Assembly: GCF_030705305.1 (NCBI RefSeq)
Contig: NZ_JAUZEE010000002.1
Span: 338,374 to 402,373 of the forward strand
From: Leptothrix discophora
Lineage (GTDB): Bacteria > Pseudomonadota > Gammaproteobacteria > Burkholderiales > Burkholderiaceae_C
Direction of reading: 5' to 3'
DNA length: 64,000 bases
This document shows positions 8,613-39,292 of this stretch, piece after piece (the stretch's first letter is position 1; every line of letters begins with the position of its first letter). The notes below the pieces were generated by a model. That model was not told where the DNA came from. It did not search any database and saw only the letters and a program-made list of their open reading frames with translations. A program made the translations under genes and the position numbers.

Positions 8613-8648
8613 GCGCCGCGTGGTGCCGGCTCATGGGCCGAGCGAACA

Positions 8649-8669: not shown

Positions 8670-8681
8670 ACACGCAAGTCC

Positions 8682-8708
8682 TTGTCACACAACGCTTGGC
8701 CGTATAAA
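8682..8708 (+). promoter_or_regulatory. Candidate promoter of the nucleotidyltransferase gene
   Basis: TTGTCA (8682-8687) and TATAAA (8703-8708) are separated by 15 bases in a short AT-rich pocket just outside the IS right end. The gene starts 30 bases downstream. The spacing is slightly short, so this is tentative. Confidence 0.35.
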
Positions 8709-8737
8709 TTCGACTTCTGATTTCTCTACGGCCAACG

Positions 8738-9682
8738 ATGGACTACCTACCCCTGCCGGACAACGCCGCGCGACAGTTCATCGATGCGATGACGGTGTTC
8801 AATGAGCATCGACGCGCCCGGGCGGAGGCTACCAAGCACGCCGGCGGGATGTACTGGAAGCGCCAGGCGGGCTATGAGTACCTGGTCAAGACCTTGCCGG
8901 ACAACCGGCAGCGGCGCATCGGGCCTCGCAACGAGGAGACCGAGCGCACGCTGGAAGCCTTCACGCAGCGCAAGGCGGCATCCGAGTCCCGGCTTCGCTC
9001 GTTGCGCGAGGCCCTGAAGGAGGCCGAGCGGCTGAACAAGGCCCTGAAGGTCGGGCGCGTGCCTCAGCTGGTGGTGGATCTGTTGCGCACGCTCGATGAG
9101 GTCGGCCTGGGGCCGCACTTCGTCGTCGTCGGCACGCACGCGCTCTATGCCTACGAGGCTGCGGCCGGCGTCCGGATCGTGCAGGACGCGCTGGCGACGC
9201 AGGACGTGGACCTGTTGTGGGACGCCCGTCGCCGGGTCCAGTTCATCACCGATCTCGAACGCCTCGACTCGTCGATGCTGGGCATCCTGCAACGCGTCGA
9301 CGCGAGCTTCCGCCGCAAGGAACTGAACAACGAGACCGCCATCAACGATCGTGGCTTCGAGGTGGACTTCCTGCGGCGTGTGCCGGTCGAAGGTGATCCA
9401 CACCCCTTCCGCTTCTCGGACGACGAGGGCGATCTGTGGCCGGTGCAGGCCCTGCGCGCTTCCGTGCTGACCGATGCCCCGAAGTTCGAGCAGGTGGTGG
9501 TCTCGGCCACCGGGAAGATGGCGCTGATGCGCACCATCGATCCGACGACCTTCGTGGCTTTCAAGCGCTGGTTGAACGACGCCGCGCCGCAGCGCCCGCC
9601 GCTCAAGCGCCGACGCGATGCACGACAGGCGGACATCGTTCAAGCCCTCCTCGACGACGGCCAGCTGCTGCCTCAAGCCTGA
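8738..9682 (+). CDS. Nucleotidyltransferase-fold protein, GSU2403-like
   Basis: 314 residues. The first 110 residues are charged and helical (EATKHAGGMYWKRQAGYEYLV, then a Lys/Glu/Arg-rich coiled segment). From about residue 125 a nucleotidyltransferase core is visible: FVVVGTHALYAYE, then ATQDVDLLWDAR with the Asp-x-Asp metal pair at about 170, then FEVDFLRRV with a third acidic strand. This matches the NTP_transf_8/GSU2403 group of uncharacterised nucleotidyltransferases. The final residues are basic. The target of nucleotidyl transfer, and whether it is active, cannot be told. The gene stands alone just past the IS5-like element, which may have brought or disrupted its regulation. Confidence 0.7.
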   Translation: MDYLPLPDNAARQFIDAMTVFNEHRRARAEATKHAGGMYWKRQAGYEYLVKTLPDNRQRRIGPRNEETERTLEAFTQRKAASESRLRSLREALKEAERLNKALKVGRVPQLVVDLLRTLDEVGLGPHFVVVGTHALYAYEAAAGVRIVQDALATQDVDLLWDARRRVQFITDLERLDSSMLGILQRVDASFRRKELNNETAINDRGFEVDFLRRVPVEGDPHPFRFSDDEGDLWPVQALRASVLTDAPKFEQVVVSATGKMALMRTIDPTTFVAFKRWLNDAAPQRPPLKRRRDARQADIVQALLDDGQLLPQA

Positions 9683-11813: not shown

Positions 11814-12524
11814 ATGAGCATGCTGGACGACTTCCCCATCACCCGCCGCTGGCCGGCGCAGCACCCGGAGCGGCTGCAGCTGTACTCGCTGCCGACGCCC
11901 AACGGCGTCAAGGTCTCGATCGCGTTGGAGGAGAGCGGCCTGGCCTACGAGCCGCACCTGGTCCGCTTCGACACCAACGACCAGATGACGCCGGAGTTCC
12001 TGTCGCTCAACCCGAACAACAAGATCCCCGCCATCCTCGATCCGGACGGCCCGGGCGGGCGGCCGCTGGCGCTGTTCGAGTCCGGCGCGATCCTGGTCTA
12101 CCTGGCCGACAAGACCGGCCAGCTGATGCCGCTGGACCCGGCGCGGCGCTACGAGACGCTGCAGTGGCTGATGTTCCAGATGGGCGGCATCGGGCCGATG
12201 TTTGGCCAGCTCGGCTTCTTCCACAAGTTCGCCGGCAAGGACTACGAGGACAAGCGCCCGCGCGACCGCTACGTGGCCGAGTCGCGCCGCCTGCTGGGCG
12301 TGCTGGACCAGCGGCTGCGCGGCCGCGCCTGGGTCATGGGCGACGACTACACGGTGGCCGACATCGCCATCCTCCCGTGGGTCAACAACCTGGTCGGCTT
12401 CTACGGCGCGGGCGAACGGGTCGGCTGGGCCGACTTCCCCGAGGTGCAACGCGTGCTGGCCGCCTTCCTGGCCCGTCCGGCGGTGCAGCGTGGCCTGAAC
12501 ATCCCGGCCCGGCCGGCGGCCTGA
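11814..12524 (+). CDS. Glutathione S-transferase, nu class (YghU/YfcG-like)
   Basis: 236 residues. The N-terminal thioredoxin-like domain shows LYSLPTPNGVKVSIALEE, the Thr-x-Asn motif of nu-class transferases, and the cis-proline/glutathione site NKIPAILDPDG with LFESGAILVYLAD. The helical C-terminal domain includes MFQMGGIGPMFGQLGFF and the family N-cap box GDDYTVADIAILPW. Nu-class enzymes act mainly as glutathione-disulphide-linked peroxidases or disulphide-bond reductases in the cytoplasm. GAGGA 8 bases before the ATG supports the start. The same region encodes two other glutathione-dependent enzymes (fghA and adhC), but on the opposite strand. Confidence 0.88.
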   Translation: MSMLDDFPITRRWPAQHPERLQLYSLPTPNGVKVSIALEESGLAYEPHLVRFDTNDQMTPEFLSLNPNNKIPAILDPDGPGGRPLALFESGAILVYLADKTGQLMPLDPARRYETLQWLMFQMGGIGPMFGQLGFFHKFAGKDYEDKRPRDRYVAESRRLLGVLDQRLRGRAWVMGDDYTVADIAILPWVNNLVGFYGAGERVGWADFPEVQRVLAAFLARPAVQRGLNIPARPAA

Positions 12525-24845: not shown

Positions 24846-24972
24846 TGCTGAAAGGTCGGGCGATTGCGGCGCAGGCGAGGCACTTTTGCGCGAATCGTGG
24901 ACGTTGGTGCGGGAGTGGCCTTGCTGGGCAGCAAGAATCGCGACGGTCGATTTTTCGAGTTCAGGGAGAACC

Positions 24973-25857
24973 ATGTCGCGTCGTCGTCGTTCCAGCCCCG
25001 CCGAGAGGCTGCTTGACCTGGTGTCCCGCTTGCCCTGGTGGGCCGATGTATTGCTGGCACTGCTCAGCCACGTCTGGCTGCATCGGCTGGCCGGTCGGCC
25101 GATGACCGCCATGGCGCAGCCGGGGCAGCTGGGCGAGCTGCTCACGCAGACCCTTGCCACCACCCTCGCGAGCTGGGGCCAGTACATCGTGCCCTCGCTG
25201 TGCCTGGCGGGTGCCGGACTGTCCGCCTGGCGACGCCGAGAACGTCGGCAATTGATGGCGGACGTCGTGCAGGCCCGCTCAGCCGACGCCGTGGACGGCC
25301 TGAGCTGGCAGCAGTTCGAGCAACTCGTCGGCGAGGGCTTCCGCCAGCAGGGTTACCGCGTGACCGAGACAGGCGGCGGCGGCGCGGACGGCGGGGTGGA
25401 CCTGGTGCTGACGAAGGGCACGGAGAAGTTCCTGGTCCAGTGCAAGCGATGGCGGGCACAGCGGGTCGGCGTCGACGTGGTGCGCGAGCTGTACGGCGTC
25501 ATGGCCGCCCGGGGCGCGACCGGCGGATACGTGGTGAGTTCAGGGCGCTACACCGACGATGCCCTGGCGTTCGCCCAGGGTCGCAACGTTCGTCTGATCG
25601 ACGGCCCGCGACTGCAGGCCTTGCTCCGCCAGGGCCGCCGCGCTTCGCCCGATTCGCCCAATGGTCGGAGCGCACCTCCCGCGAACCCGCGCTCCCGTCC
25701 TCCGGAGGTCGTCGACTTCCCGGCCAGCGCGCCTTCCTGCCCGCTCTGCGGCAAGGCCATGACCCGCCGCACCGCCCGCCGCGGCACCCACGCGGGCACG
25801 GCGTTCTGGGGGTGCACGGGGTATCCGGCTTGCAAGGGGACGAGGGCGATGGGGTGA
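24973..25857 (+). CDS. Mrr-type restriction endonuclease with membrane segments and zinc ribbon
   Basis: 294 residues. After a basic start come two hydrophobic stretches, about 24-40 (WWADVLLALLSHVWL) and 55-85 (TLATTLASWGQYIVPSLCLAGAG), so it probably sits in the membrane. From residue 110 is a Mrr-cat domain: LSWQQFEQLVGEGFRQQGY, GGGGADGGVDLVL (catalytic Asp), FLVQCKRW (Gln-x-Lys) and ELYGVMAARGATGGYVVS. The end is a topoisomerase-type zinc ribbon: CPLC, then CTGYPAC. GGGAG 6 bases upstream supports the ATG. Related proteins are counted among Mrr-like nucleases that may restrict foreign DNA. It leads into a defence region but is on the other strand from the main operon. Confidence 0.78.
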   Translation: MSRRRRSSPAERLLDLVSRLPWWADVLLALLSHVWLHRLAGRPMTAMAQPGQLGELLTQTLATTLASWGQYIVPSLCLAGAGLSAWRRRERRQLMADVVQARSADAVDGLSWQQFEQLVGEGFRQQGYRVTETGGGGADGGVDLVLTKGTEKFLVQCKRWRAQRVGVDVVRELYGVMAARGATGGYVVSSGRYTDDALAFAQGRNVRLIDGPRLQALLRQGRRASPDSPNGRSAPPANPRSRPPEVVDFPASAPSCPLCGKAMTRRTARRGTHAGTAFWGCTGYPACKGTRAMG

Positions 25858-26028
25858 GGCGAGATCGCTTCGGCTCATCAAGCTGCGCGATCGCAGCTTC
25901 GCACCGGCCGCGCACGCCGTTCTCGACGCCTTGCGTGAACTGGCGCTGCCCCTGCGCACCGCAGTTGCCGCTGCGGGACCTGGCGGTCGCTGACCGCGTG
26001 GATGTTGGGCGAGCAGGGCGGGCCAGGG

Positions 26029-26920
26029 TCAGCAGCGGGGCGGTCCCGGGCCCTGCACCCAAACCCCCGCCTCCCTCAACCACCGCATCCCCTGCCGCAG
26101 GCTGTCGAACTGCGTGAGCACCACGCGCACGAAGCTGGCCGGGTCGTCGAAGACCTCGCGGCCGAGCAGGCCCAATTCGAGCTGGGCGCGGGCGACGGTG
26201 TTGGCGTCGAGGTGGTAGGTGACATCCGGCAGCCTCGGGCCGCCGAAGTCCAGGGGCTCGAACAGCAGGTGCAGCGAGCGGTCGGCGCGCATCGTCACCG
26301 TCACCCGTGACTGCTCGGCGCCGTTGCCGTCGACGAGCTGGTGCATGGCGCTGACCTTTTCCGGGGATGACGCCGTGTCGGCCTGCGTCAGCTGGCGCAG
26401 GAAGGCATAGAAGGCCGGGTCCTGATTGCCGTAGAGCCGCAGTTGCAGCGCCCGTTCGGCGAGGCGTTCCTCGTCGCGTCGGCGGCGCAGCAGGTCGACC
26501 TGCCAGTCGGCCCAGTGGCCGCAGTTGAGCAGCAGGTCTAGCCATAGCGACCAGGCGCACTGCGTCGGGTCCAGCGCCTGTCAAGCGACACCCAAACCCA
26601 TCCCCAGGGGGGTAGTTTTGCGTGGCGGCTGACAGCGCCGCCCATCCTGCCGTGCCGGCGGTGGCGCTGACGAGGGCGCTCGGGTCGTCCTGAACCAGTC
26701 CCCAGCCATCCGGCCAGATCGACGGCCCTGGCCGGCCGGACGGCTGCCACATGACGTAGACCCACTGGGCCGGGTAGCGGTCGACGTGGTCATCGGACTC
26801 GACCCGCCGGGCCTCGTCCAGCCGCAGGACGGCGGCGCTCCAGCGGCCCGATGGATCCAGCGCGGGCGCGGGGCCGGGACGGGGGCGGAAGGGCGGGAAA
26901 TCGTTGACGGCGGTCCACAT
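26029..26920 (-). pseudogene. Unknown gene broken by a single-base frameshift
   Basis: A reading frame from ATG at 26920 (AGGAG 6 bases upstream) codes MWTAVNDFPPFRPRPGPAPA, continues through YVMWQPSGRPGPSIWPDGWG and TQNYPPGDGFGCRLT, then loses coherence near 26580. A second frame continues the protein: LDPTQCAWSLWLDLLLNCG, WADWQVDLLRRRRDEERLAE, then VDGNGAEQSRVTVTMRADRS and a C-terminus ending GVWVQGPGPPRC at 26029. The total length, 892 bases, is one more than a multiple of three, as expected for one inserted base near CTTGACAGG. The product would be about 296 residues, soluble and Trp-rich. I do not recognise the family. A sequencing error cannot be excluded. Confidence 0.55.
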
Positions 26921-27079
26921 CGGCGGCTCCTGGGATGACCTGCCGATGATGGGGAGGGGGCGGGCTCAGTTCGTGAGCCAGTCAGGATTTGGGCGGATCG
27001 CGCTGGCCCAACCAGCGGTTTACCTCGGCGGCTGATCTGGAAATCAAAACGAAATCTGGTGCAGTCGACCCGCCATCTA

Positions 27080-28390
27080 TTAATGGATTTCGGTTGGGTT
27101 GATTGAATCTGATGAATCATCTGACCATAAGGGCACCAGCTTCACTGTGATTGTGATGTCGCCTTCCAGCTCCGCTGTCATGAGCTTGAACACCGGAGAT
27201 CGCCGGAGGTTTACGAGTTCGGAAGGTCGTGGGTAAGCCAGTTCCAGCGAGGTACAGCCATATCGCAATGCATATGCGAGCAGTTGGTACGCATCGGCCT
27301 CTTCCACGCCGAAGTTGGCCGCCAATGGATTCAATCGTTTCCACTTCGCATCGACGATGCGGTCAATGCCTGAGGCTCCACCGTCTTCGCCGACGTGCCA
27401 GACCGTGATATCCGGCTTCAGCATGAACGCTTCGAGCGGGCCGTGAGTTGCCAGCGGCAGCGGGGGGCCTTGCGTGTGTACGACGCGACTGGAACCTGAA
27501 TCGGCTTCCTCCAGCTTGGCTGTGTGGGCCTCGAACAGCTTGTTCATGTCAAACAGCAAACCCGGGGCTTGCGATGTTCCCGCGCTCATGGCTGGGCTGG
27601 CCATGGCCAGCAGCCATTCGCACCATGTCAGCAACTGGCCATAGCGATGGGTCGTGCGGTCACGGGGCAGGCGCGCCACGTCTGCCGACGAGATCCTCGT
27701 AGCCGACACGCTGGCATACCGGGTGTACGTCTCAAACCACATCCGCTGCGTACTGGCTCTGCTTGGCCATGTTCGGCACGCTTCCAGCGTCGCCTTGACG
27801 GCGCGGTTGTAGGCGTTGTCAACGGTGAACTCGTCATACTCGCAATGAAGCAAATGGGGCCGCGCCAGATTGCGGCGAACGTGTCCGTGTGCCTGGAAGC
27901 GCCCTTTGATGACAACCAGGTCTTCAGCCGTCCCCACATACCGACTCAACTGGCCGCGCCTAGCTTGTTCCAGCGCGCATTTGAGGAATGCCTCAATGAA
28001 GACGTCCAGAAGCGGGGCGTGGGCAGCCTGCTGCGGAACCGGTCCGATCTTGGTGAGGGTCACCAATCGGGCACTGTGCAACATGGCCATGAGGGCGCCC
28101 CGGGCTTGCTTCAACTCGTCGGGTGTCCGGAGGTCTGACATGCCGACCTTGGGCAAGACTTCCACGACGCAGTTTGGCAGTCGAACGATGCCGCAGTGTT
28201 GGGCGAGCTTGATGCCACCTGAGTGCCGCTGGCAGAACCCTCGACGCAGTTCATTGAGTCGAAGAAGCGCCTGCGCCTCAGTCTCCGAAAATACTGGGAA
28301 GTTGTCCGCCGATGTGCCAGGTTCATCACCATGCTCGACGATGGGGATGACCTCGTGCTCCAGAACTGTGATGGTGCGCAGGCCTCCCAT
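27080..28390 (-). CDS. McrC-type nuclease subunit of a McrBC-like system
   Basis: 436 residues. McrC proteins bring the nuclease to the McrB motor, which in McrBC cuts modified DNA. The N-terminal half shows the McrC pattern IVRLPNCVVEVLPKVG, then SRYVGTAEDLVVIKGRF and HCEYDEFTVDNAYNRAVKAT. The C-terminal part carries the PD-(D/E)xK nuclease: Asp337 in LKPDITVW and Asp357/Lys359 in IDRIVDAKWKRL, then ADAYQLLAYALRYG. Its start lies 4 bases after the mcrB-like stop, so it is the last gene of the five-gene defence operon. Codon use is less GC-rich than that of the flanks. Specificity is not deducible. Confidence 0.87.
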   Translation of the reverse strand: MGGLRTITVLEHEVIPIVEHGDEPGTSADNFPVFSETEAQALLRLNELRRGFCQRHSGGIKLAQHCGIVRLPNCVVEVLPKVGMSDLRTPDELKQARGALMAMLHSARLVTLTKIGPVPQQAAHAPLLDVFIEAFLKCALEQARRGQLSRYVGTAEDLVVIKGRFQAHGHVRRNLARPHLLHCEYDEFTVDNAYNRAVKATLEACRTWPSRASTQRMWFETYTRYASVSATRISSADVARLPRDRTTHRYGQLLTWCEWLLAMASPAMSAGTSQAPGLLFDMNKLFEAHTAKLEEADSGSSRVVHTQGPPLPLATHGPLEAFMLKPDITVWHVGEDGGASGIDRIVDAKWKRLNPLAANFGVEEADAYQLLAYALRYGCTSLELAYPRPSELVNLRRSPVFKLMTAELEGDITITVKLVPLWSDDSSDSINPTEIH

Positions 28391-28394
28391 TGCA

Positions 28395-30329
28395 TCAACC
28401 CCCGTTCTGCGCGGGGCCTGGACCTTCTTCAGGTTGAATCACGGCTTCGACCGTTGGTGCCTCGTGGATGTATTTCCCCCCGTAAAGCGACATCACTTGA
28501 GCTTCGCTCCAGGTGCCAGGATCTCCTACCGAGAAGGTCGGCCGCGCTTCCGTGCCGACATCCTGCTTGGCACCAGGGAACAGCTCTGACGGCGACAGAG
28601 ACCTGGACCTGAAGAACACGCTTTCCTTGCTGTTTCCAGTCAAGACGAGACGCACCTTTTCCATATCTTCGAAGAAGTACTCCTGGAGCAAGGGGATCAC
28701 GCGCTGCGCCAGTACCTGTTGCAACTCGGCGAGGGAAGTGATGCCCATGAAGACCGCATGTCCGATGGCATGGTCTCGGTCCAGGAGGTATTCAAGTCGG
28801 TCATTCAATCGCTGGAGCAAGGCCCGCAGGTCAACTGCTCCCACCATCGCTGGCTCGATGAGGTCGGGCTCGGGCGGGCACTCCTGGAAGCGGAAGCGTC
28901 GTCGAAGGGCGATGTCCATCATTGCAATGGAACGGTCCGCCGTGTTCATGGTTGCCACCAGGTTCAGGTTGTCGGGGACACCAAAAGGCGCCGACAGCCC
29001 TGGCAGCGTCACCCAAGTGCCCGCGTCATTCGGCGTGCTGCCTGCAATCACTCGCTTGCTCGGCTCGATCAATGTGATCAACTCGCCGAAGACCTTGGCG
29101 ACGTTCGCTCGGTTGATCTCGTCGATGAACAGGGTGAATTGCTGTGTCGGGTTGGCATGTGCCTTCTCACAAAGCATCAGGAACGGACCTTTGTGAAAGG
29201 CAACCCCAATGCCCGAGCCATTCTCGGAAGGCACTGGTCTCAGGCCTCCAATGAAATCTTCGTAGGAGTAGCTGGGATGGAAAGCCACGAAAGCAAAGTC
29301 TTCGCCTTCGTCAAAGGCGGCCTTCATCCGCGCCTGCATGTCATGCGTCTTGCCAGTGCCGGGCGGTCCGTACAGGATCAAGTTATCGGCAAGACGCAGC
29401 GTGGGTTTCGCGTTCGTTGCGGCCTCAACATCGTACTCCGGGTCAGGCTCATGCGCGGACAACGGTACAAGATTCGCCACTGGGCCGTATCCACTGCCAG
29501 TCACGGCCGATACTTTGCCTGCGGGCGCTACCGGCTTCTTGATCAGCGTGCCGACAGGCAATACGTAGTAGTCAACGGCGCCGGGGTGCTGCACCTCCAG
29601 GCGTCTGCGCAGGTCTTCCAGGGCGGCATCCATGGCCGGACGGCTTTCGCCCAGGGCTCGCGTCCATATCTTGTGTGCTCTGGCCACCTGAAACTTGTTT
29701 CCTTGACTGAAAATTCTTTCAAAAGTGTCCGGAAAAAGAACATGGCACAGCGTGTGATAGAGCTGCCTCCCCTTGCCTGACGGTATTCCATCCAGCCATT
29801 GCGCGAAGCCGTGAGCATCCTTCAGCAGTGCCTCTCGATCGCTGCGGGGCTTGTTGATGAATGCTGAAAACGCCTCGACGGCGAATGCAATTTCCATCCA
29901 AAGGTAGTTGTTGTAGCCCGGTCCTGCGCTGCCCAAACCTGACAGCACCGGCATCGTCAAGAAAGCTGACATTGAAGGAAATGGTGCCGCTGGGTTCATG
30001 TTCCAGATGCGCTCCAGCGTCCTCACCTTTGTTGGCGCTCGCAGGTTGGTTGGGCCAAGTTGCACGATCCAAAAGACCTCTGTCATCAGTGCGACATCAA
30101 GCGCTTGACAGGTGGACAACTGGCTGGCGAGTTTTTCGTAGAAGCGGCCATCACCCACGTCGGGCTGCTTGACGTAGTTGTCTATCAGGGCTTGGAAGTG
30201 GCCGTTTGTCCAAAGGGGCAGGGAGTCCAGGAACAATGACTCCTGGTCAAGCAGGCAGCGTTGCTTGAACCTGTCGGCTGCTTCGAAGATCTGAGCAGCG
30301 AGGGGGTGATTGGGGTTGTAGCGGCTCAT
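28395..30329 (-). CDS. McrB-type AAA+ motor subunit
   Basis: 644 residues. The AAA+ domain of about 300-590 has Walker A GPPGTGKTHD (about 321), Walker B TLFIDEINRANVAKVFGE (about 400) and the McrB hallmark MNTADRSIAMMDIALRRRF (about 461). It would hydrolyse a nucleotide (GTP in E. coli McrB) and drive the McrC nuclease. The first 290 residues are not the DUF3578-like methyl-DNA reader of E. coli McrB. They contain YHTLCHVLFPDTFERIFSQG near 190, a motif seen before many McrB-like AAA domains. So the DNA or modification recognised may differ. The gene starts 19 bases after the OLD gene stop and ends 4 bases before mcrC. Confidence 0.87.
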   Translation of the reverse strand: MSRYNPNHPLAAQIFEAADRFKQRCLLDQESLFLDSLPLWTNGHFQALIDNYVKQPDVGDGRFYEKLASQLSTCQALDVALMTEVFWIVQLGPTNLRAPTKVRTLERIWNMNPAAPFPSMSAFLTMPVLSGLGSAGPGYNNYLWMEIAFAVEAFSAFINKPRSDREALLKDAHGFAQWLDGIPSGKGRQLYHTLCHVLFPDTFERIFSQGNKFQVARAHKIWTRALGESRPAMDAALEDLRRRLEVQHPGAVDYYVLPVGTLIKKPVAPAGKVSAVTGSGYGPVANLVPLSAHEPDPEYDVEAATNAKPTLRLADNLILYGPPGTGKTHDMQARMKAAFDEGEDFAFVAFHPSYSYEDFIGGLRPVPSENGSGIGVAFHKGPFLMLCEKAHANPTQQFTLFIDEINRANVAKVFGELITLIEPSKRVIAGSTPNDAGTWVTLPGLSAPFGVPDNLNLVATMNTADRSIAMMDIALRRRFRFQECPPEPDLIEPAMVGAVDLRALLQRLNDRLEYLLDRDHAIGHAVFMGITSLAELQQVLAQRVIPLLQEYFFEDMEKVRLVLTGNSKESVFFRSRSLSPSELFPGAKQDVGTEARPTFSVGDPGTWSEAQVMSLYGGKYIHEAPTVEAVIQPEEGPGPAQNGG

Positions 30330-30348
30330 GCTGATTTCAAGTTTGGTG

Positions 30349-32073
30349 TCAGGCTATGGCCAAGGCTGCGCAAAAGTGGTCACGTAGGGCTTTCAGGCTG
30401 GAAGGTTGAATCTTCCCTCCAGTGATCGCCTTCATGATTTCAAGCGGCTTCTTGTCGTTGCCTTTAGGCACAGACAGGTCAAGAAATTCCTCCAGGCATC
30501 CTGTGAACTTCACCGGCGGCGCCAGCGTCATCGGATTGGCGCATGTATCGATCAAGTCGTTGACGGCACCATGAAGGTTCTGTCCGTGGTCGTCGTCCAA
30601 CATGATTCCATGTGGAATGCCATAGGCCTCCAGCAGCGCCATGTATCGATGCAGGTTGAATTTACCAAGGGCATCGATGACACAGATGCGATGCCGCGCC
30701 AAATCGTGCCACTCGTTCGCGAGTAGATAGTTGAAAAGGGCCCGCTCAGTCGCGCCTTCGACCAATAGCACTCGGTCAGCAAAGAACAGCGAGGCCCGCT
30801 CGCCGTCCAGCCAAAGCTGGAATCGAAACCGTTCCTCCTGCTCGGCGATGTGCGCCTCCGGTGGGGCGGCCATCATGTCTCTGGCCCGTTTTTTGGTGTT
30901 GTCGGGAATTTTCGGGTCGTCGATGAAGGCCTGCAAGGCGACCATCAACTCTCCACCTCGGTCAAATAGATCCTTGATCTGTCCGCCCCGGGGTTGGAAT
31001 GCCTGACTCGAACCGTTGCTACGCTGAATCCGAACCAACTGGCCGATGTGCTCAGCCGCCTTGCCGGCAAATGTTGTCGAGTGGGTCGTGATGATCACCT
31101 GCTGGCCGGGTTCAGCGCCAAGGCGGCGCAGGTGATAGGCCATGCTCTCCTGCTGGCTGGGATGCAGGAAAGCCTCCGGCTCCTCAAACAAGACCAGCGA
31201 GAACGTCGGATTGAATTCTTTCTTGTCTGCCTTCTTCTCGTCCTTGAACGTCGGTGCGAGTCGGATCAGTTCATAGATGACAGATCGTTGGAAGCCATGT
31301 CCATAGCGATCGAGATCAAACCCAAATTCGCCATTGGCCGAATCGACGAATTCAAATCTCACGAGCGACTTCGAAATGTCCTCGGGCGCTACGGCGCCGA
31401 CCGACAAGTCGATCTTGATGTTCCAAGATGCGATCGCGTTGTTCAGTGGCGCCGAAATCTCACTCAGGAATCCACTGTTCTGGCGAGCCTCATTGTTCAA
31501 TTTCTCGAATGCCGCCGAGACTTCCTTGAAGGCCTCGCTCTTGGCGACGACTTTCTTCAGCAGAAAGTTCAACATGTTTCGCAGCGGAGATGGTCCCGAC
31601 ATCTTTGTCTGCTCTGCGGGCGTGGTCAGTGCTGGTACAAAGACGATTTGACCAACCTTGGCAGCGCCGACGTTCTTGGCGCCGTAGAACAATTCCGTGT
31701 CGAGGGCTCCGCTTATCAGCCCGAAGATGTTGCTCTGACCAGATTGGACCCTTGTCTTGTCGTCAGACTTGAAATAGCGTCGAACCGTCAGTTGCTGGTT
31801 GTTTGCGCCGGACTTGTATTTCTCGGCCAGGCCGCTCCATTCGTCGTCATCCAGGGCGAATGTCAGTTGTACCCATGACTCTTGATCCACAGTGCTGGCC
31901 CTGGGGAAGTCATCCGACGACCACTTCAGGTCGTCATAGAACGCCCTGAGTGCATTCATGACGGTACTTTTGCCCGCATTGTTTGCGCCGACGAGCAATG
32001 TGTAGTCGTGAACCTCGATGCAGAGGTCGATGATGGACCGATAGTTGTGGATTCTGAGTTCTTGAATCTTCAT
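30349..32073 (-). CDS. OLD-family ATPase with TOPRIM nuclease domain
   Basis: 574 residues. The N-terminal ABC/SMC-type ATPase has Walker A VGANNAGKSTVMNALR (about 29-36), the signature-region GFQRSVIYELIRLAP, Walker B LVLFEEPEAFLHPSQQ (about 295) and switch His in IITTHSTTF. The C-terminal TOPRIM domain shows VLLVEGATERALFNYL (Glu439) and GIMLDDDHGQNL (about 490-500). Such OLD nucleases include P2 Old and GajA of Gabija and act against phage or foreign DNA. GajA normally pairs with a UvrD-like helicase, and none is here. Instead it lies between mod and mcrB in one operon, with gaps of 42 and 19 bases. Confidence 0.87.
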   Translation of the reverse strand: MKIQELRIHNYRSIIDLCIEVHDYTLLVGANNAGKSTVMNALRAFYDDLKWSSDDFPRASTVDQESWVQLTFALDDDEWSGLAEKYKSGANNQQLTVRRYFKSDDKTRVQSGQSNIFGLISGALDTELFYGAKNVGAAKVGQIVFVPALTTPAEQTKMSGPSPLRNMLNFLLKKVVAKSEAFKEVSAAFEKLNNEARQNSGFLSEISAPLNNAIASWNIKIDLSVGAVAPEDISKSLVRFEFVDSANGEFGFDLDRYGHGFQRSVIYELIRLAPTFKDEKKADKKEFNPTFSLVLFEEPEAFLHPSQQESMAYHLRRLGAEPGQQVIITTHSTTFAGKAAEHIGQLVRIQRSNGSSQAFQPRGGQIKDLFDRGGELMVALQAFIDDPKIPDNTKKRARDMMAAPPEAHIAEQEERFRFQLWLDGERASLFFADRVLLVEGATERALFNYLLANEWHDLARHRICVIDALGKFNLHRYMALLEAYGIPHGIMLDDDHGQNLHGAVNDLIDTCANPMTLAPPVKFTGCLEEFLDLSVPKGNDKKPLEIMKAITGGKIQPSSLKALRDHFCAALAIA

Positions 32074-32115
32074 TTTGTGGCTCCCTGAACGATTCTTTCG
32101 AAGGGTAGAGTCGGT

Positions 32116-34152
32116 TTAGTCGATTGCTTTGGTCACAATCACTTCTTCCCCCAGCATGTCGATGATCTTGACGGCTACCGTCGAGCCGGCGGGCTGTGCA
32201 GGCATTTCATATCGCCCGTTCACCAGGTCTTGCTTGCGTTCCGGCACGTCGGCCAGCGCCACGTTGAAAACTTGGCCGTCGTACTGTGGGTCGATCAAGA
32301 TGCAATCGACCACGGCGCGCCAATCGGTGATCTGGGCACGGAACACGCCTTGCTCCAGGTTCAGGCGCTGCATGATGGTGGGCGATACCACATCCTGCAC
32401 CTCGACCACCAGCTTGGCGCTGGCCCCGTCGCCCATGCGTTCGGCGTTGACCTGGGCGGTCAATGGCTCGTGCTTGATGATGCCGCCGAGCTTGCGATCG
32501 GTTCGCAACTCAACCACATGCAGCTTGTTGACCGGTCGGTTGCGGTTGTAGGTTTCCACCCAAGCCCGCGCGTCATGTTGCCAGCCGAGGCAGACCACCA
32601 TCACGTCGCGCTCTTCGGTCGGCCGTGTCTTCAGTTCATTGCGGACCGCCTCCAGGTCCAGTGGCGTCAGCGGATGATTGAACGGCACGATCTTGACCAG
32701 GCGGCCTCCTTGAGTGCCTTCGAAGAATGAGTCGGTACGCGTACGCGTGACACCCAGATGTTGACAGGCCAATTCGACAACTTCATTGTGTTGGATTTGG
32801 AGGTCGTAGTCGTTGACTCTGTAGGTGGCGAAGCCGAGCTGGCTTGGCTTCTGGCAAGTCTGCGCTATTCCGATCAGGTCGCCTTGCTGAGGTACGCAAG
32901 CATCAGCTGCCTGGGTTTTCATTAGGTCCTGGATGCGTTTGGCCGTCGTTTGAATTGCTCCTTTGTTGATGTCACAGCCGATCCAGCGTCGGCCGAGTCT
33001 TTGCGCACTGACTGCGGTAGTTCCAGAGCCTAGGAAGCAGTCGAACACGATGTCTCCGGGGTTCGAAGAAGCCGAAATCACGCGGTCGATCAATGCCTCA
33101 GGCTTCTGCGTTGGGTATCCGAGAAGTTCCTGGGACTGGTTGTGAATTGGTTTGATATCAGACCAGATGTCCTGGGCCGTTCCACCTTGCTCAATCGCCT
33201 CATCCATGTAGCGCTTGAGGCGAGGCATGCCACCCTCGCTCTTTGGCCAATGAATTCGACCTTCTACCTCCCATTGCTCCAGCTGCGAAACGCCCACCTT
33301 CCAGTGGTTGCCCTTCTCGGCTGGCTGAATGCCCCGCCAAGACTTGCCGGTTTCACCTTTGCGAAGCCCTCTTGCGGTCAGATCCGACCGCGCGTAGCGA
33401 CGCCCCGTTCCCTCCTCCGTCTGATCGAAAAACTGCTCCAGATAGGTCTCCCGAAGTTCAGTCCGCTGTGGATTCCAAACTCGATCGGGGGCGCCGTAGT
33501 AGTAGATGGTGTCGTGAATAATCCCAAATCTTCCTGAGTCGTTGTGCGCGCTTAGTCGTTGCCAAATAATCTCATTGACAAACGAGTCGGCACCAAATAC
33601 CTCGTCAAGAACCAAACGGAGGTAGCTGTTTCGAGAAGGGTCGCAGTGCAGATAAATTGCGCCGTCCGGTGCTAGAAGCATCTTCAACATAAGCAGACGC
33701 TCGTACATGAACTGCAGATAATTGTCGTTTGCCCAGATGTCGCTGTACTGCACTTGCTCGCCCAGCGTGTAGTCCTCGCCATCGATCTTTACCGTGCCCT
33801 TGGCGCCGCGCAGTTGCACCTTGCGCACATAGTCCGCACCGCTGTCGAACGGCGGGTCGATGTAGATCAGCTTGACCTTGCCTCGAAAGCCATTGGCCAG
33901 AAGATGTGCGAGCACGTCCTTGTTATCGCCGTGATACAGCAATCCCCCCTTTGGCAAGTCCTTGGGCCAATCGCTCCAATCGGCTTCTTGGAGGGCCACG
34001 GGCTGGCCGCCCGTCGCATCGAATCGCTCGATGGCCTGGGCCGGGTAGGAGCGGACCCTGGAAAGAGGTTTCTTCCCCACCCAAGTGAGCATGGGGCGGC
34101 CTTTCGCTTTGGCGACGGTCACGTCCTTCGACTTCTTGATGCTTTCATTCAT
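32116..34152 (-). CDS. mod: Type III restriction-modification DNA methyltransferase (Mod)
   Basis: 678 residues. A beta-class N6-adenine methyltransferase: catalytic DPPF (99-102) in LIYIDPPFDSGADYV, then the target-recognition region of about 180-330, then the SAM motif FLGSGTT (373-379) in DIVFDCFLGSGTTAVSAQRLG. A long C-terminal extension of some 270 residues follows, as in type III Mod subunits. It marks host DNA and gives sequence specificity to Res. The chosen ATG (MNESIKKSK) opens with a basic stretch. It starts 35 bases after the res stop. In most type III systems mod precedes res; here the order is reversed. Confidence 0.88.
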   Translation of the reverse strand: MNESIKKSKDVTVAKAKGRPMLTWVGKKPLSRVRSYPAQAIERFDATGGQPVALQEADWSDWPKDLPKGGLLYHGDNKDVLAHLLANGFRGKVKLIYIDPPFDSGADYVRKVQLRGAKGTVKIDGEDYTLGEQVQYSDIWANDNYLQFMYERLLMLKMLLAPDGAIYLHCDPSRNSYLRLVLDEVFGADSFVNEIIWQRLSAHNDSGRFGIIHDTIYYYGAPDRVWNPQRTELRETYLEQFFDQTEEGTGRRYARSDLTARGLRKGETGKSWRGIQPAEKGNHWKVGVSQLEQWEVEGRIHWPKSEGGMPRLKRYMDEAIEQGGTAQDIWSDIKPIHNQSQELLGYPTQKPEALIDRVISASSNPGDIVFDCFLGSGTTAVSAQRLGRRWIGCDINKGAIQTTAKRIQDLMKTQAADACVPQQGDLIGIAQTCQKPSQLGFATYRVNDYDLQIQHNEVVELACQHLGVTRTRTDSFFEGTQGGRLVKIVPFNHPLTPLDLEAVRNELKTRPTEERDVMVVCLGWQHDARAWVETYNRNRPVNKLHVVELRTDRKLGGIIKHEPLTAQVNAERMGDGASAKLVVEVQDVVSPTIMQRLNLEQGVFRAQITDWRAVVDCILIDPQYDGQVFNVALADVPERKQDLVNGRYEMPAQPAGSTVAVKIIDMLGEEVIVTKAID

Positions 34153-34187
34153 GGCTTGTCTGTGTTCCAGGTGTCGTCGTTGGCGAA

Positions 34188-36941
34188 TCAAGCGCCGCGA
34201 ATGAAGTCGCGGACCTGCGCGTAACCCTCGGCCTTGAGAGCGGTGTCGGCAAACATCACGTGGTAGGCCAGCTTGTCGGGGTTCAAGCCCTCCCACTGCT
34301 TCAGCGCCACGGCCTTCTTGCCTTCCAAGGTCTGCGCGGCTTCTCCGCGACCCAGCCGCGCCAAGTCGCCCTTGATGTCCGGGCTGTAGCTGTCGCGCTT
34401 GATCTCAATCACGAGGTGCTTGCCATCCGCGCGGCGCAACACAAAGTCAGGCGTGTACCGGTGCCAGCGGCCGTCGTCGCCCAGGTACTCCGCGTAGAGA
34501 TCGGTCTTGGCCGGGTCGGTGATGCCGCCCGTGAACCAAACCCCTTCGATCTGATGAGGCTGCGTCTGCAACTGGGTCAGTGCCCAGTGCAGAAACTCGG
34601 CCTCCGGGCCGGAATCGAAGTTGTAGCCCTCGTAGTGGAAGCTGCTGGCAAGTGCGTGTGCGGTGTCATGCGTGTCTCGTGCCGTCAGGTACAGCGCTTC
34701 GCGTTCCTTGGCAAAGTTGATACGTGCCGTGTAGACCGGGTGACCCGCACGCTCGGATAGTTCGAAGCCGTCGGCCTTGACCAACGCAATGGCCACATCG
34801 ATTTCTTCGAAGTGCTCTTCATAGTCCGAGCTCTGGGCTTCGATCTGCCGGCCCAGCGCGACCAGGTGGTGATCCGGGATGTCGGTGCCTGTGCCATAGG
34901 CGCTGCGCAAGGCCGCCAGCACGTCGCCGGCGGACAAGTGGTAGTTGGCAGCGAGTTCGGCGGCGGCCGCGTAGCTGTCCAGTACCGGGGGCGGTGCCGG
35001 CAACACATCGTCGCCGCCATCGACCTTCTGAAGGGCGGTCATGCCCGAGGCTGCCTGCACCGGCGTCAATGTCTCCACCGTCACGCCTGCCGGCGCAGCC
35101 ACGTCCGGTACCGTCAGCTGCAGCGGTGCGGCTGCGCCGCTGTCGGCCTTGCGGCGGTAGCGCAGCACGCGCTTCTTGATCAGCAGCGGCGGCAGGTGTG
35201 GGCGATGCAGAGTGATTTCGCGCTCGACGCGTTCGGCCTGCTGCGCGTCCAGGTCCTTCAGGGACGTGCCATAGGTTTCGGCCAGTTGCGACTCCAACGT
35301 CTTGCGATTGCTGTCCGTCAGATAAACCCGAGCCGGGTGCTTGTTGCCAGGCACTTGGCGTAGACATCGGGTGGCTGCCTGAAGCACGAAGTTGTTGCTG
35401 TTGACCAGCTTTCGGACCAGCGCCGTGGCGAACAGGCTGGGGCAGTTCCAGCCTTCGGTACCCATGTTGACCAACAGCAGCACACGCTCAGGCGCTTCGG
35501 GGTTTCGGGCAACTGCTTCGAACTTGCGACGTGTCGCTTCACTGCTCTTGCCATCGACGGCCAGGATGGTGTCCGCGCCGATGCCGCGTTGGGCGATTGC
35601 TGACTCGACCGACCCACGGAGTTCATCCCGGGCTTCAATGCTGGGGAAATACAGTGCCAAACGAGCAGGTGCACCGTTGGGAAGGGTGACGGCCCAATAG
35701 TCGCGCACGAAGTCCTCGATGACATTGGAGACCAACGTGTCCGCCTCGCCGTCGCCCAGATCGAACACCTTGATGTTTTTGGCGAGTTCCTTCAACACGC
35801 CATCGCGGATGCCTTCGCCCAGGCCGTACCAGACCACCACATCCCGCAGAGGCTGTCGCTCGAAGTAGGGTGTGCCGGTGGCATTGATCACGACGATCAG
35901 ATTCGTTTCCTCGGCGAGGTAGTCGATGGTGCGGCGGACCTTCTTGATGCCGTCATCCTTGAACACGAGTTCGCCGCTCTCCTTGTCCTTCTCCCACTTG
36001 CCCAGCAGCTTCTGCCCGTAGGTGTGGTGGGCTTCGTCTGAAAAAACGGCGAGGTGCGGCAGCGATGCCACGGCTTGCAGGCGAAGGTTGGCAAGCTCGG
36101 TCTGCTCCTCTGCTTTCGTGCCAGCGAACAGCTGCGCTTGCGGGCCGATGCCGCGCATATTGGGCCTCTGGATGCGGATCTTCTCTGTGTTGGTGACGAT
36201 GACGTTGAAATTGCTGCCCCATACGATGGGGATCTGCTTGTCGCCATCACGTGTGAACGTCAACTTCAAGCTGGCTGCGAACGGCCTGTACATGCGCGGA
36301 GGCAACAGCTTCTCGTACGGCACGTCGGACAGTTCGCGCAGTGCGCTGAGGATGGTCTTGCCCGGGGCAAAGAGCAGTGCGTTCTGTACGAAGGGCCCGT
36401 CCGGATACTCCATGGCCAAGGCGAACTCGGTGGCCACGATGGAGCCCATGAGGATCGTCTTGCCTGCGCCCATGGCCAAGGCCAAGATATAGCTGGCGTA
36501 GTCCAGTGTCAGAGACTCCCGCAAGCTCTCCAAGGCGTACTTGCGGACGAAGGCGTTGTCGGTCTTGACTCGTTCCAGGCAGCCTTCCAACCCCTCATCA
36601 GCAATGAAGCTGACGATGTCGGGATGTGTCAGTCCCATGGCCTCACGCCGGTCTTTGGGCTTCGGAAACAGCTTGGCGTAGAGGTCGGGAATTCTGGGCG
36701 TCTCAAGCACGAGACGGAGAAGCCAATAGGTCTCCAGCGCTCTGAACTGTGCTCGTCGAAGGTAGCGAAGCTGGCCGGTTTCGTTGTCCTCGGTGGCGAA
36801 TTCCAGAATCTCGCGGATCGCGGGAAACTGATCGCAGGGATAGTTCGCGTCGCGCCATTCGTCCACTCGTTGTGCAAGTGCTTGATAGAGATAGGGCATA
36901 TGCGCTGGTTGCTTGTTCAGGCTGGACTTTCCGCGCTTCAA
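34188..36941 (-). CDS. res: Type III restriction helicase-nuclease (Res)
   Basis: 917 residues if started at TTG 36941; an ATG at 36899 would give 903. SF2 helicase motifs: I ALAMGAGKTILMG (about 156), II FSDEAHHTYG (about 301), III VVINATGTPYFERQ (about 350), and later LLLVNMGTEGWNCPS and VLQAATRCLRQVPG (motif VI). The C-terminal PD-ExK nuclease reads TPDFVLRRADGKHLVIEIKRD near 835. Res moves along DNA and cleaves when unmodified sites meet. First gene of the operon. Neither start has a good ribosome-binding site. The TTG overlaps the stop of a small upstream frame (TTGA), so translational coupling is possible. Confidence 0.85.
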   Translation of the reverse strand: MKRGKSSLNKQPAHMPYLYQALAQRVDEWRDANYPCDQFPAIREILEFATEDNETGQLRYLRRAQFRALETYWLLRLVLETPRIPDLYAKLFPKPKDRREAMGLTHPDIVSFIADEGLEGCLERVKTDNAFVRKYALESLRESLTLDYASYILALAMGAGKTILMGSIVATEFALAMEYPDGPFVQNALLFAPGKTILSALRELSDVPYEKLLPPRMYRPFAASLKLTFTRDGDKQIPIVWGSNFNVIVTNTEKIRIQRPNMRGIGPQAQLFAGTKAEEQTELANLRLQAVASLPHLAVFSDEAHHTYGQKLLGKWEKDKESGELVFKDDGIKKVRRTIDYLAEETNLIVVINATGTPYFERQPLRDVVVWYGLGEGIRDGVLKELAKNIKVFDLGDGEADTLVSNVIEDFVRDYWAVTLPNGAPARLALYFPSIEARDELRGSVESAIAQRGIGADTILAVDGKSSEATRRKFEAVARNPEAPERVLLLVNMGTEGWNCPSLFATALVRKLVNSNNFVLQAATRCLRQVPGNKHPARVYLTDSNRKTLESQLAETYGTSLKDLDAQQAERVEREITLHRPHLPPLLIKKRVLRYRRKADSGAAAPLQLTVPDVAAPAGVTVETLTPVQAASGMTALQKVDGGDDVLPAPPPVLDSYAAAAELAANYHLSAGDVLAALRSAYGTGTDIPDHHLVALGRQIEAQSSDYEEHFEEIDVAIALVKADGFELSERAGHPVYTARINFAKEREALYLTARDTHDTAHALASSFHYEGYNFDSGPEAEFLHWALTQLQTQPHQIEGVWFTGGITDPAKTDLYAEYLGDDGRWHRYTPDFVLRRADGKHLVIEIKRDSYSPDIKGDLARLGRGEAAQTLEGKKAVALKQWEGLNPDKLAYHVMFADTALKAEGYAQVRDFIRGA

Positions 36942-37150
36942 GCGAGCGAATCCAGATGCTGAATACTGTTAAAGATGTTGGACTTGGCCGGCCAATCTTG
37001 AACCGATGTATGGAATACGAGCATCGTTGTGAGACGCCTCCTTCGGAGGGCTGAGGTTGTCTGCCACCAAGCTGATGACTCGAACTCAAGGCCGTCGATA
37101 TTCATGTTCATCTGACTTCTGAGCACATAGCTGGTCGGTTCGTTGGACAT
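36938..37150 (-). CDS. Possible small gene just upstream of res
   Basis: 70 codons from ATG (MSNEPTSYVLRSQMNMNIDG) to a TGA that overlaps the TTG candidate start of res. I do not recognise the product. Its AT content is like that of the defence operon. It might be a leader or regulator, or an accidental open frame. The rest of the stretch up to the NYN gene (37151-37283) shows no gene, and a small hairpin CCTCCGAAGGAGG (about 37040) lies inside. Confidence 0.25.
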   Translation of the reverse strand: MSNEPTSYVLRSQMNMNIDGLEFESSAWWQTTSALRRRRLTTMLVFHTSVQDWPAKSNIFNSIQHLDSLA

Positions 37151-37283
37151 GGAGACCTACAGCATCAGGTCCGGTCGGTGCAAGGTCGTGATGAGCAGCC
37201 TGACTCAGCATGAGCGCTCAGCGGATGGTGCCGGTACAGAAGGCTTGCCTCGGAACAGGCGAAGGTGGCGAGGGCTTGGCTGT
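36942..37283. other. 342 bases between res and the NYN gene
   Basis: This is the upstream side of the five-gene defence operon, so it should hold the operon promoter. Apart from a possible 70-codon frame there is no convincing gene. I could not pick out -35 and -10 boxes with confidence. The base composition changes within it from AT-richer (defence side) to GC-rich (NYN side), so the island edge probably lies here. Confidence 0.4.
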
Positions 37284-38051
37284 TCATGGGTTGGTGGTAG
37301 ATCCTGTGACATCGACCGGCGAGGCCAGCGCGACGGTCCAATGGCTGCCAGCTTCCTGCCGCGTGTCCAGCAGGTCGTAGGTTTTGAGCATGCCGACCAG
37401 CCCGGAGTGGCCATACGTCTGTGGAGAGAACGAGGGGTCGGTGCGGCGCAGGTAGGAGCCCAGTTCGCTGACGGTGATGCGGCCGGTCGCCGAGTCCGCC
37501 GCAAGCAGCTTGACGGCGCTGACGACCGACCGTGGCCGCTGCTTCGGCTTGGGCGCGGCAGGGGCCTTGACCACGGGCACCGCAGGCACGCCCGGCGGCG
37601 TGGCGACCACCGCCTCCGGTGCGACCCATTGGAAGAACTGGTCACTGGCGTTGCGCAGGTCCTCGGGCGTCTTGGCCTCGCCGATCACGTGCACGGTGGC
37701 GCCACGCTCGCGCAGCTTGCGGCACAGGCCGGCGAAGTCCGAGTCGCTGGTAACCAGGCAGAACGTCGTGGCGCGCTGGTCGAACAGGGCCTCGATCGCG
37801 TCCATCGCCAGCGCGATGTCGGAGGTGTTCTTGCCGGCGGCGTAGGCGTACTGAAGGCAGGGCGTGAATGCCTGCTGCACCAGCACCGTCTGCCACTTGT
37901 TGGCCAGCGCCGTATGGCTGCCAAAGCCGCGCCGCAGGACCACCCGGCCGAACTGAGCGGCGACCCGCAATGCGTAGTCGAGGATGGCCGGATCTGCGTT
38001 CTCGCAATCGACCAGCACGGCCACTTTGGCTTCCGGTTCTCCGGCTGACAT
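37284..38051 (-). CDS. NYN-domain (LabA-like) protein with C-terminal LOTUS/OST-HTH
   Basis: 255 residues. The NYN domain (about 8-145) is a PIN-like ribonuclease fold: KVAVLVDCENADPAI (Asp15), GKNTSDIALAMDAIEALF (Asp78) and LVTSDSDFAGLCRKLRE (about 100), giving the acidic cluster. A Pro/Ala/Lys linker follows, then a winged LOTUS/OST-HTH domain, about 185-250 (RSVVSAVKLLAADSATGRIT, ELGSYLRRTDPSFSP). Such proteins are thought to bind and cut RNA. GGAG lies 8 bases before the ATG. GC content matches the host, unlike the defence operon next door. It has no operon partner and ends beside the island edge. Confidence 0.82.
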   Translation of the reverse strand: MSAGEPEAKVAVLVDCENADPAILDYALRVAAQFGRVVLRRGFGSHTALANKWQTVLVQQAFTPCLQYAYAAGKNTSDIALAMDAIEALFDQRATTFCLVTSDSDFAGLCRKLRERGATVHVIGEAKTPEDLRNASDQFFQWVAPEAVVATPPGVPAVPVVKAPAAPKPKQRPRSVVSAVKLLAADSATGRITVSELGSYLRRTDPSFSPQTYGHSGLVGMLKTYDLLDTRQEAGSHWTVALASPVDVTGSTTNP

Positions 38052-38205
38052 GGCAAGTTCTCCCTGACAGCTTGCTGCCACCTGCCGTCCGCCGGTGGGC
38101 AAGAGGTTCGTTCTCGATGGATCCGTCCATGGTAGCCAACGAGGGTCCGAGCCGAGGGCAGGGCGTGGCTGCCGAGGCCTGACCAGGGATCGGTCCTACG
38201 CCCCC

Positions 38206-38238
38206 AAAGCAAAGGGCCCTGCATCGCTGCAGGGCCCT
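38206..38238 (-). terminator. Terminator downstream of tRNA-Ala
   Basis: An 11-base perfect stem (AGGGCCCTGCA/TGCAGGGCCCT, 38213-38238) with a 4-base loop is followed on the minus strand by TTGCTTT. It lies 17 bases after the tRNA 3' end. Confidence 0.8.
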
Positions 38239-38254
38239 GGCTGTTTCATTCGTG

Positions 38255-38330
<76 letters not shown>

Positions 38331-38425
38331 ACGAATGACGCGGAGTGTAGCAGGGCGCTATCGGGGGCTGGTGTGGCCTTGGTGTAGAAATCGGGCACTT
38401 GTGGTCCAGTGATGGGGGATGGGGG

Positions 38426-39292
38426 ATGGAGATGGCTGGGGACGGGATCAACCAGGCGGCGCTGGATGCGCTCTATGACAACCGCGCGCGGGTGCCCGAG
38501 CATGGGCAGATCTTCGAGCGCTGGGCAGGCGCGTCGGCGCGGGCGAGGGAGCGTCTGCCGGGCGTGCAGGTGGACCTGGCCTATGGACCGACAGCCGGGC
38601 AGCGGCTCGACGTGTTTCCTTGTGACGAGGACGGCGCGCCGGTGCTGTTCTTCATCCACGGCGGCTGGTGGCGCTCGCTGGACAAGTCGCAGCATGGCTT
38701 CGTCGCGCCGGCCTTCGTGCAGGGCGGCGCGACGGTGGTGGTGCCGAACTACGACCTGTGCCCGGCCGTGTCGATTGGCGAGATCGCGCAGCAGATGACC
38801 CGGGCGCTGGCCTGGACCTGGCGCGAGATCGGCCGGTTCGGTGCGGACCGGCGCCGGCTGCTGGTCGTCGGGCATTCGGCCGGGGCGCACCTGGCGGCCA
38901 TGATGCTGGCGTGTGACTGGGCGCATGTCGGTGCCGACCTGCCGACCGACCTGGTGCGGCGTTCGGTCGGGCTGTCCGGGGTCTACGACCTGGAACCGGT
39001 CTCGCGCGTGGGTTTCCTGCGCGATGACCTGCGGCTGGCCGCGGCCGACGTGCCGCGCTGGAGCCCCGCATCGTTTCCGGCGCCCAGGGGACGCCACGCG
39101 GCCTTCGTCGGTGGCGACGAGAGCACGGCCTTTCTGGCCCAGAACGCCGCGCTGGCGCGGGCCTGGGGGCCGCGCGCGGTGCCGGTCTGCGAGACCTTGC
39201 CCGGCCTGAACCACTTCACCATCGTCGACGAACTGGCCGAGCCCGGTACGCGCGCGCAGTCGCTGGTGTTCGAGTGGCTGGACGAGGTCTGA
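38426..39292 (+). CDS. Alpha/beta hydrolase, kynurenine formamidase/carboxylesterase-like
   Basis: 288 residues from the ATG after a G-rich Shine-Dalgarno-like run; a TTG 27 bases earlier is less likely. The oxyanion-hole motif HGGWW (about 78) and nucleophile GHSAGAHLAA (Ser151) are clear. LSGVYDLEPVSRVGF near 190 and the His in GLNHFTIVDEL near 265 fit the catalytic Asp/His region. This pattern is that of the bacterial esterase branch with HGGxW, which includes aryl formamidases of tryptophan breakdown. No other kynurenine gene is nearby, so the substrate stays open. It converges with the rsxB gene. Confidence 0.8.
   Translation: MEMAGDGINQAALDALYDNRARVPEHGQIFERWAGASARARERLPGVQVDLAYGPTAGQRLDVFPCDEDGAPVLFFIHGGWWRSLDKSQHGFVAPAFVQGGATVVVPNYDLCPAVSIGEIAQQMTRALAWTWREIGRFGADRRRLLVVGHSAGAHLAAMMLACDWAHVGADLPTDLVRRSVGLSGVYDLEPVSRVGFLRDDLRLAAADVPRWSPASFPAPRGRHAAFVGGDESTAFLAQNAALARAWGPRAVPVCETLPGLNHFTIVDELAEPGTRAQSLVFEWLDEV

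Follow-up and report, generated by a model that had tools for sequence, protein, structure and literature searches.

A putative composite defence operon of type III-like restriction-modification, OLD nuclease and McrBC modules in Leptothrix discophora

Do five closely spaced defence genes of Leptothrix discophora make up one anti-phage system, or several systems placed in a row? The question is raised by a 64,000-nucleotide stretch of contig NZ_JAUZEE010000002.1 (assembly GCF_030705305.1, positions 338,374 to 402,373 of the forward strand; hereafter the window, whose own numbering is used throughout), in which five co-directional minus-strand genes span 36899-27080 in the transcription order Res, Mod, OLD, McrB and McrC, with intergenic gaps of 35, 42, 19 and 4 bases. 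A sequence-only reading of the window had described this order, these gaps and intact catalytic motifs, all of which were borne out by the open reading frames (ORFs), Pfam matches and motif strings. It had further proposed that the operon may be a single system, with the Mod product protecting host DNA from both Res and McrBC, or with OLD as a backup. We favour another reading, to which we give a probability of about 0.8: the locus is a composite defence operon of three separable modules, a type III-like restriction-modification (R-M) pair, an OLD nuclease and McrBC, acting as layered defence. Loci and genomes examined for comparison are given below by L and G numbers, respectively.

Res (34188-36899) is a predicted type III-like restriction subunit, an SF2 helicase with a C-terminal PD-(D/E)XK (TnsA-like) nuclease, and carries the strings GAGKT, SDEAHH and PDF..EIKRD. 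The five genes of the sequence-only reading are all present, except that its Res start, a TTG at 36941, is most likely to be replaced by the ATG at 36899, because DNA similarity to the homologue in Ideonella begins exactly there and the annotated start of that homologue agrees. Mod (32116-34152) is a beta-class N6-adenine-type DNA methyltransferase with an exchangeable middle region, the presumed target recognition region; it starts at ATG 34152, inside a longer listed ORF from 34296, and has DPPF followed by FLGSGTT. OLD (30349-32073) combines an OLD-family ABC ATPase with a TOPRIM nuclease domain in a single gene, as in class 1 (NNAGKST, LFEEPEAFLHP, LLVEGATE and LDDD). The last two genes encode a McrB-like AAA+ GTPase (28395-30329; GPPGTGKT, LFIDEINRA and MNTADRS) and a McrC-like PD-(D/E)XK nuclease (27080-28390; PDI..DAKWK). 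We take all these strings to have the functional meaning usually assigned to them. The Pfam matches of the five proteins were ResIII, N6_N4_Mtase, AAA_15 with OLD-like TOPRIM, AAA_5 (McrB) and McrBC, respectively. The cluster differs in composition from its surroundings: its genes have a GC content of 0.55-0.62 (0.69-0.78 at third codon positions, GC3), whereas three nearby genes have 0.70-0.75 (GC3 0.83-0.95). No terminator-like site was found in the cluster's gaps on its strand, and promoter-like sites numbered 1 against 2.7 expected by chance. The five genes may share one transcript.

The Res assignment came from a ResIII match at 4.9e-5 (23.7 bits, above the cut-off of 22.5) and a C-terminal TnsA-like match at 0.0014, below the cut-off; in an alignment of the Res family (A3), ResIII was found in nine of nine members and the TnsA-like domain in eight of nine at E <= 0.01. 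No PDB chain was matched by Res, either as a single sequence or as a family profile. Mod matched N6_N4_Mtase at 1.8e-43 and the EcoP15I Mod structure 4zcf at 2.5e-19. Six further loci carry a Res homologue at 69-92% identity, one on an Ideonella dechloratans plasmid (L017) and the rest in genomes G352, G626, G749, G482 and G602. In four of the six (L044, L109, L111 and L112; 6.7, 11.5, 11.6 and 2.6 kb read beyond Mod, respectively) the pair had no match to OLD, McrB or McrC within the sequence read. The next gene lay on the other strand in each case: a HAD-type hydrolase and then elongation factor G in L044, a gene without family assignment in L109, a PhoD phosphatase in L111 and an ABC transporter ATPase in L112. 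The contig of L110 stops inside Mod. In Ideonella, Res-Mod is followed by an ABC ATPase and a DUF4276 gene (PADLOC HEC-01A, 1.3e-131, and HEC-01B, 4.1e-70) and then by an Mrr enzyme, and the DNA similarity to the window stops 28 bases before the Mod stop codon.

The two ends of Mod are 85% and 87% identical to those of the Ideonella protein and its middle 22%, beside a Res of 92% identity; the end, middle and end values are 74, 40 and 67% against G352 and 92, 91 and 81% against G626. A swap of what is presumably the target-recognition region, with Res kept constant, is expected of a working type III-like pair. Judged by motif order, the EcoP15I match and this exchange of the middle, Mod appears to be a beta-class N6-adenine-type enzyme with an internal target recognition region, as type III Mod subunits are. 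The pair resembles EcoP15I-like type III R-M in its Mod and in a Res made of a helicase and a C-terminal PD-(D/E)XK domain, and differs in a Res too divergent for any PDB sequence match. The gene order is Res-Mod here and Mod-Res in relatives with 29% identical Res (L021, L047, L048, L050 and L101). We concluded that Res-Mod, as far as gene neighbourhoods tell, stands as an independent unit. Res matched in 22 plasmid records, 3 of which were examined for neighbours.

As a side observation, distant Res relatives belong to a three-gene set of UvrD helicase, Mod and Res, in one alphaproteobacterium, one member of the Bacteroidota and four genomes of the window's order (L021 3071-10487, L047 6545-13951, L048 6671-14290, L049 8000-15430, L050 668-8206 and L101 1957-9481). 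In the four UvrD helicases scanned with Pfam (L021, L048, L049 and L050) a C-terminal PDDEXK_1 nuclease follows, and in L047-L049 a large divergent gene adjoins the set, which is possibly a defence system of its own.

OLD matched PADLOC Old at 1.9e-57 and Pfam OLD-like_TOPRIM at 2.9e-18; its best solved structure was TsOLD (6p74, 9.9e-11). Proteins of at least 55% identity (the others at 55-83%) defined a set of 12 loci: the window, L002-L008, L018, L046, L051 and L100, the OLD loci of L018 and L100 being near copies. A methyltransferase or R-M gene precedes OLD on the same strand in 5 of the 12 (window, L007, L003, L046 and L008). In L003 an N6_N4-type methyltransferase lies directly before it, 111 bases apart; in L046 it is preceded by HsdR, HsdM and HsdS and followed by a PADLOC PDC-S11 gene; L008 has a C5 methylase with an Eco29kI-type endonuclease, then FRG and GmrSD-like genes, and then OLD. 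No R-M gene was seen beside OLD in the other seven (L002, L004, L005, L006, L018, L051 and L100), where the neighbours either are resolvase, conjugation or toxin-antitoxin genes or gave no R-M match in Pfam. A tree of 12 rows (all the loci but L004 and L100, plus L019 and L022 at 47-48%) did not draw the R-M-linked rows as one group, and four of its nine inner branches stayed open. Neighbours were examined in 4 of the 54 plasmid records with an OLD match. On these neighbourhoods we regard OLD as a separate module. The plasmid of L018, which carries a whole OLD gene, also has a 73-residue piece of an OLD C-terminus (62%) at 12270-12485.

The window McrB matched McrB structures (6ut3, 2.5e-51; 6hz4, 1.4e-34) over the motor part only, and McrC matched Pfam McrBC at 7.8e-63 and the McrC of 6ut5 at 1.2e-6. 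The closest copy of the two genes (L045 in G054; McrB 80%, McrC 72%) stands behind HsdR-HsdM-HsdS and a PtuA/PtuB-like (Septu-like) pair, of which the PtuB match is weak (1.9e-9). Between the two McrB proteins, identity ranges from 68 to 84% in the N-terminal domain (residues 1-250, in 50-residue blocks) and from 78 to 96% in the motor (residues 300-600). Because this N-domain is kept despite unrelated R-M partners, the target of McrB is unlikely to be set by Mod. The N-domain (about residues 1-260) matched no Pfam family, and no modified-base reader was matched by Pfam in the McrB of the window, L045 or L020. A relative in L094 (McrB 7091-9247) has an EVE domain (PF01878, 1.5e-8) between the same N-domain and the motor, and another in L097 gave a weak EVE match (0.0035). 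A single-sequence model of the N-domain was mostly helical at very low confidence (predicted local distance difference test, pLDDT, 39), and among the 60 listed of 116 PDB matches of the McrB profile, the best stretches all lay at profile positions of at least 245 (linker and motor), outside it. The sequence-only reading started from McrBC as a cutter of modified DNA; for the window pair this is unproven, because its McrB has no recognised reader domain.

Among 334 plasmid records with a McrB match, seven loci were examined, and none showed an annotated R-M gene within the stretch inspected, an argument against R-M and McrBC being paired as a rule. In Ketogulonicigenium the genes after a McrB copy (37%) are an ATP-dependent endonuclease weakly similar to OLD and a UvrD-type gene. 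Of the 27 genomes of the order with a McrB match (see below), the McrB region was examined in G054 besides the window. By its occurrence with other partners, we take McrBC to be the third module.

None of the other genomes examined repeats the five-gene order. The sequence-only reading had named, as evidence against a single system, an order confined to close relatives with independent R-M and McrBC units elsewhere, and this is largely what was seen: Res-Mod units stand by themselves in L044, L109, L111 and L112, and McrBC goes with another R-M in L045. Among 399 genomes of the order (E <= 1e-20) Res was found in 5, OLD in 2 and McrB in 27, and all three together in the window's own genome (G000) only; among 399 genomes of the family (E <= 1e-40) Res was found in 9, five of them window-like at 69-81% (G352, G482, G602, G626 and G749). 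In both searches the best one to three first-look candidates were scored per genome. A scan of 84,980 species genomes for OLD, which misses more distant relatives because it requires exact short peptides, gave seven, one of them with a Mod remnant; Res, McrB and McrC had no tblastn match in these seven, two of whose contigs end at OLD. IMG/VR scanned with OLD, Res and McrB gave no confirmed relatives. In 5,426 E. coli genomes McrBC and the queried Res-Mod stretch were unmatched and OLD was matched in one, and phage records with an OLD match numbered six, every one below 60% identity. The combination was not described in the titles and abstract openings searched, a search that left most subscription journals and bioRxiv preprints outside.

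Each module was also compared with known systems. OLD resembles class 1 proteins such as P2 Old and TsOLD in having ABC ATPase and TOPRIM in a single gene and in its best matches. Class 1 OLD genes are described as single genes away from other candidate defence genes (PMC10568477), and the relatives in seven loci have neither an R-M nor a helicase partner. The window OLD is instead flanked by Mod and McrB, and in L003, L007, L008 and L046 it comes after a methyltransferase or R-M gene, or after what is left of one; it has the domain make-up of class 1 in a setting beside candidate defence genes. Gabija (class 2 OLD) was ruled out, as the neighbours are Mod and McrB and no UvrD-like GajB helicase is adjacent. 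A retron OLD (class 3) does not fit either: no reverse transcriptase was found among the eight window proteins scanned, and Rfam gave only the tRNA described below. As to Hma (helicase-methylase-ATPase), Res matched no PADLOC model, and none named Hma was among the best 25 of 67 for Mod or the best 25 of 122 for OLD. The McrB GTPase with MNTADRS and the PD-(D/E)XK McrC in tandem are like type IV McrBC, with the difference that the window N-domain has no Pfam match and lacks the EVE domain of L094.

The stacking of defence modules with R-M, as we interpret the window by analogy, has published precedents. The type IV system TgvAB is embedded in a type I R-M operon of V. cholerae, with complementary targets proposed (PMC11411939); DarTG2 is embedded in a type I R-M system of E. 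coli, for which the phrase 'guilt-by-embedding' is used (PMC12255303); OLD-ABC modules are described as backup effectors in BREX operons (PMC12839542); and McrBC-related CoCoNuTs share predicted superoperons with type I R-M (PMC11090510). The window resembles TgvAB and DarTG2 in having separate defence cassettes within an R-M operon, and differs in that the R-M is type III-like and two modules are appended behind it, rather than one embedded. A closer parallel is the Ideonella locus, where the same R-M pair has a two-gene ABC-ATPase module (HEC-01) in the slot after Mod; its add-ons are HEC-01 and Mrr, against OLD and McrBC here.

On the layered reading, three modules, all transcribed the same way, would follow one another head to tail near a tRNA-Ala border. 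Res-Mod, a divergent type III-like pair, would methylate host sites and cut unmethylated incoming DNA; OLD would probably be a second-line effector that fires on blocked restriction or on phage DNA ends, so that the backup role suggested by the sequence-only reading is possible; McrB-McrC would be an NTP-driven translocating nuclease; and the three would work in parallel. Several observations weigh against so loose an arrangement. L007 (9827-11740) retains the last 42 Mod residues directly before OLD, which hints at an older Mod-OLD unit; the remnant may have been left by a Res-Mod-OLD unit since lost, or by recombination at the end of Mod. The L007 contig stops some 100 bases past OLD and that of L008 inside OLD, so that neither locus can show whether McrBC lies downstream. 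Among the Res-Mod pairs standing alone, the contig of L112 ends 2.6 kb past Mod, and the Res frame of L044 is split near its N-terminus, so that this copy may not be intact. The short gaps and single strand fit co-regulation, and functional coupling is possible. Finally, a layout of R-M, ABC-ATPase-type effector and further nuclease recurs with other parts, in four loci (window, L017, L045 and L046) with different families filling the slots; L008 has R-M, a GmrSD-like gene and OLD in a different order.

The last point could be extended to a recurrent three-slot architecture built of unrelated parts: any R-M, an ABC-ATPase effector with a TOPRIM or HNH partner that would sense R-M inhibition, and a further nuclease (McrBC, Mrr or PDC-S11) that would catch escaping DNA, with McrB using a new N-terminal reader. 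We consider this quite unlikely. The layout is suggestive, a lead rather than a rule, because the sample was selected outward from these proteins without a control, and the seven plasmid McrB loci and seven R-M-free OLD loci deviate from it. That OLD guards the R-M pair, silent while Res-Mod works and firing when a phage anti-restriction protein blocks it, with McrBC as a separate layer, is possible, though less likely than not. It would account for the place of OLD behind a same-strand methyltransferase or R-M gene (adjacent in the window, L007, L003 and L046, separated by two genes in L008) and for the ABC ATPase and DUF4276 genes in the same slot in Ideonella; analogues are the BREX OLD-ABC backup effectors and PARIS, which senses Ocr (PMC12839542), and PrrC with EcoPrrI (PMC12707154). 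However, OLD does not require R-M, judging from the seven loci with none seen beside it, Res-Mod occurs without OLD in four, and no specificity link between the two was seen. The tree, of low support in places, does not unite the R-M-linked rows.

A chance clustering in a defence island, with neither regulation nor function shared, appears somewhat unlikely. The separable modules, tRNA border, low GC, chance-level promoter-like sites and R-M-free plasmid McrB loci would all suit it, but five co-directional genes with gaps of at most 42 bases and similar layouts built from other parts weigh against it. The same tight spacing and single direction might be explained if all five genes formed an integrated system, with Mod placing a mark on host DNA that Res, OLD and McrBC would each rely on. 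LlaJI, which is related to McrBC, is described as reading unmodified DNA and having methyltransferases as partners (PMC12707154), and the window McrB has no known modified-base reader. Even so, we judge such a system highly improbable: the McrB N-domain is kept in G054, where it is partnered by a type I R-M; G626 has a Mod whose middle is 91% identical, and the 11.5 kb read beyond that gene contain no match to OLD or McrBC; and the five-gene order has no second copy among the genomes examined. Shared protection by Mod, as earlier proposed, is unlikely because the middle of Mod is exchanged while Res stays constant, and because the McrB N-domain is conserved next to an unrelated R-M. The single machine was set aside, its parts occurring apart (L044, L109, L111 and L112) or with other partners (L045).

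The cluster lies near a tRNA-Ala(CGC) gene (38255-38330, minus strand, Rfam), at or just past whose 3' end synteny with congeners L085 and L087 stops. On the far side, L085 is 89% identical over 9.3 kb from 38203, and L087 has three longer pieces at 73-87% and an identical 81-base tRNA match; on the cluster side, L085 matches only 102 bases within the NYN-LOTUS gene described next, and L087 matches nothing. As synteny with both congeners stops at the tRNA, the cluster sits in a variable region beside this conserved border. No integrase was found among the eight window proteins scanned with Pfam, no second copy of the tRNA end (attachment site) within the window, and nothing other than the tRNA by Rfam at gathering scores in 26000-38500. 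For the left flank, the best congener matches fell on contigs or at positions that have no relation to the tRNA.

Between tRNA and cluster, outside the proposed composite, is the NYN-LOTUS gene (37284-38048, minus strand; Pfam NYN and OST-HTH; start picked by eye), of which congener G007 keeps only a short piece at the same place. About 1.2 kb from the other end of the cluster, on the opposite strand, is an Mrr-type nuclease gene with a topoisomerase-like zinc ribbon (24886-25857); its closest congener copy (G007, 66%) is located elsewhere, and L008 contains a partial relative. Downstream of McrC, minus-strand frames in 26030-26920 look, by eye, like one gene broken by a frame change.

The Res-Mod loci form a natural series, in which one R-M pair is kept while its add-ons vary: none, HEC-01 and Mrr, or OLD and McrBC. 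This series allows testing of whether add-on effectors guard the R-M enzyme or just ride along, and the locus brings to notice a McrB N-domain of unassigned specificity.

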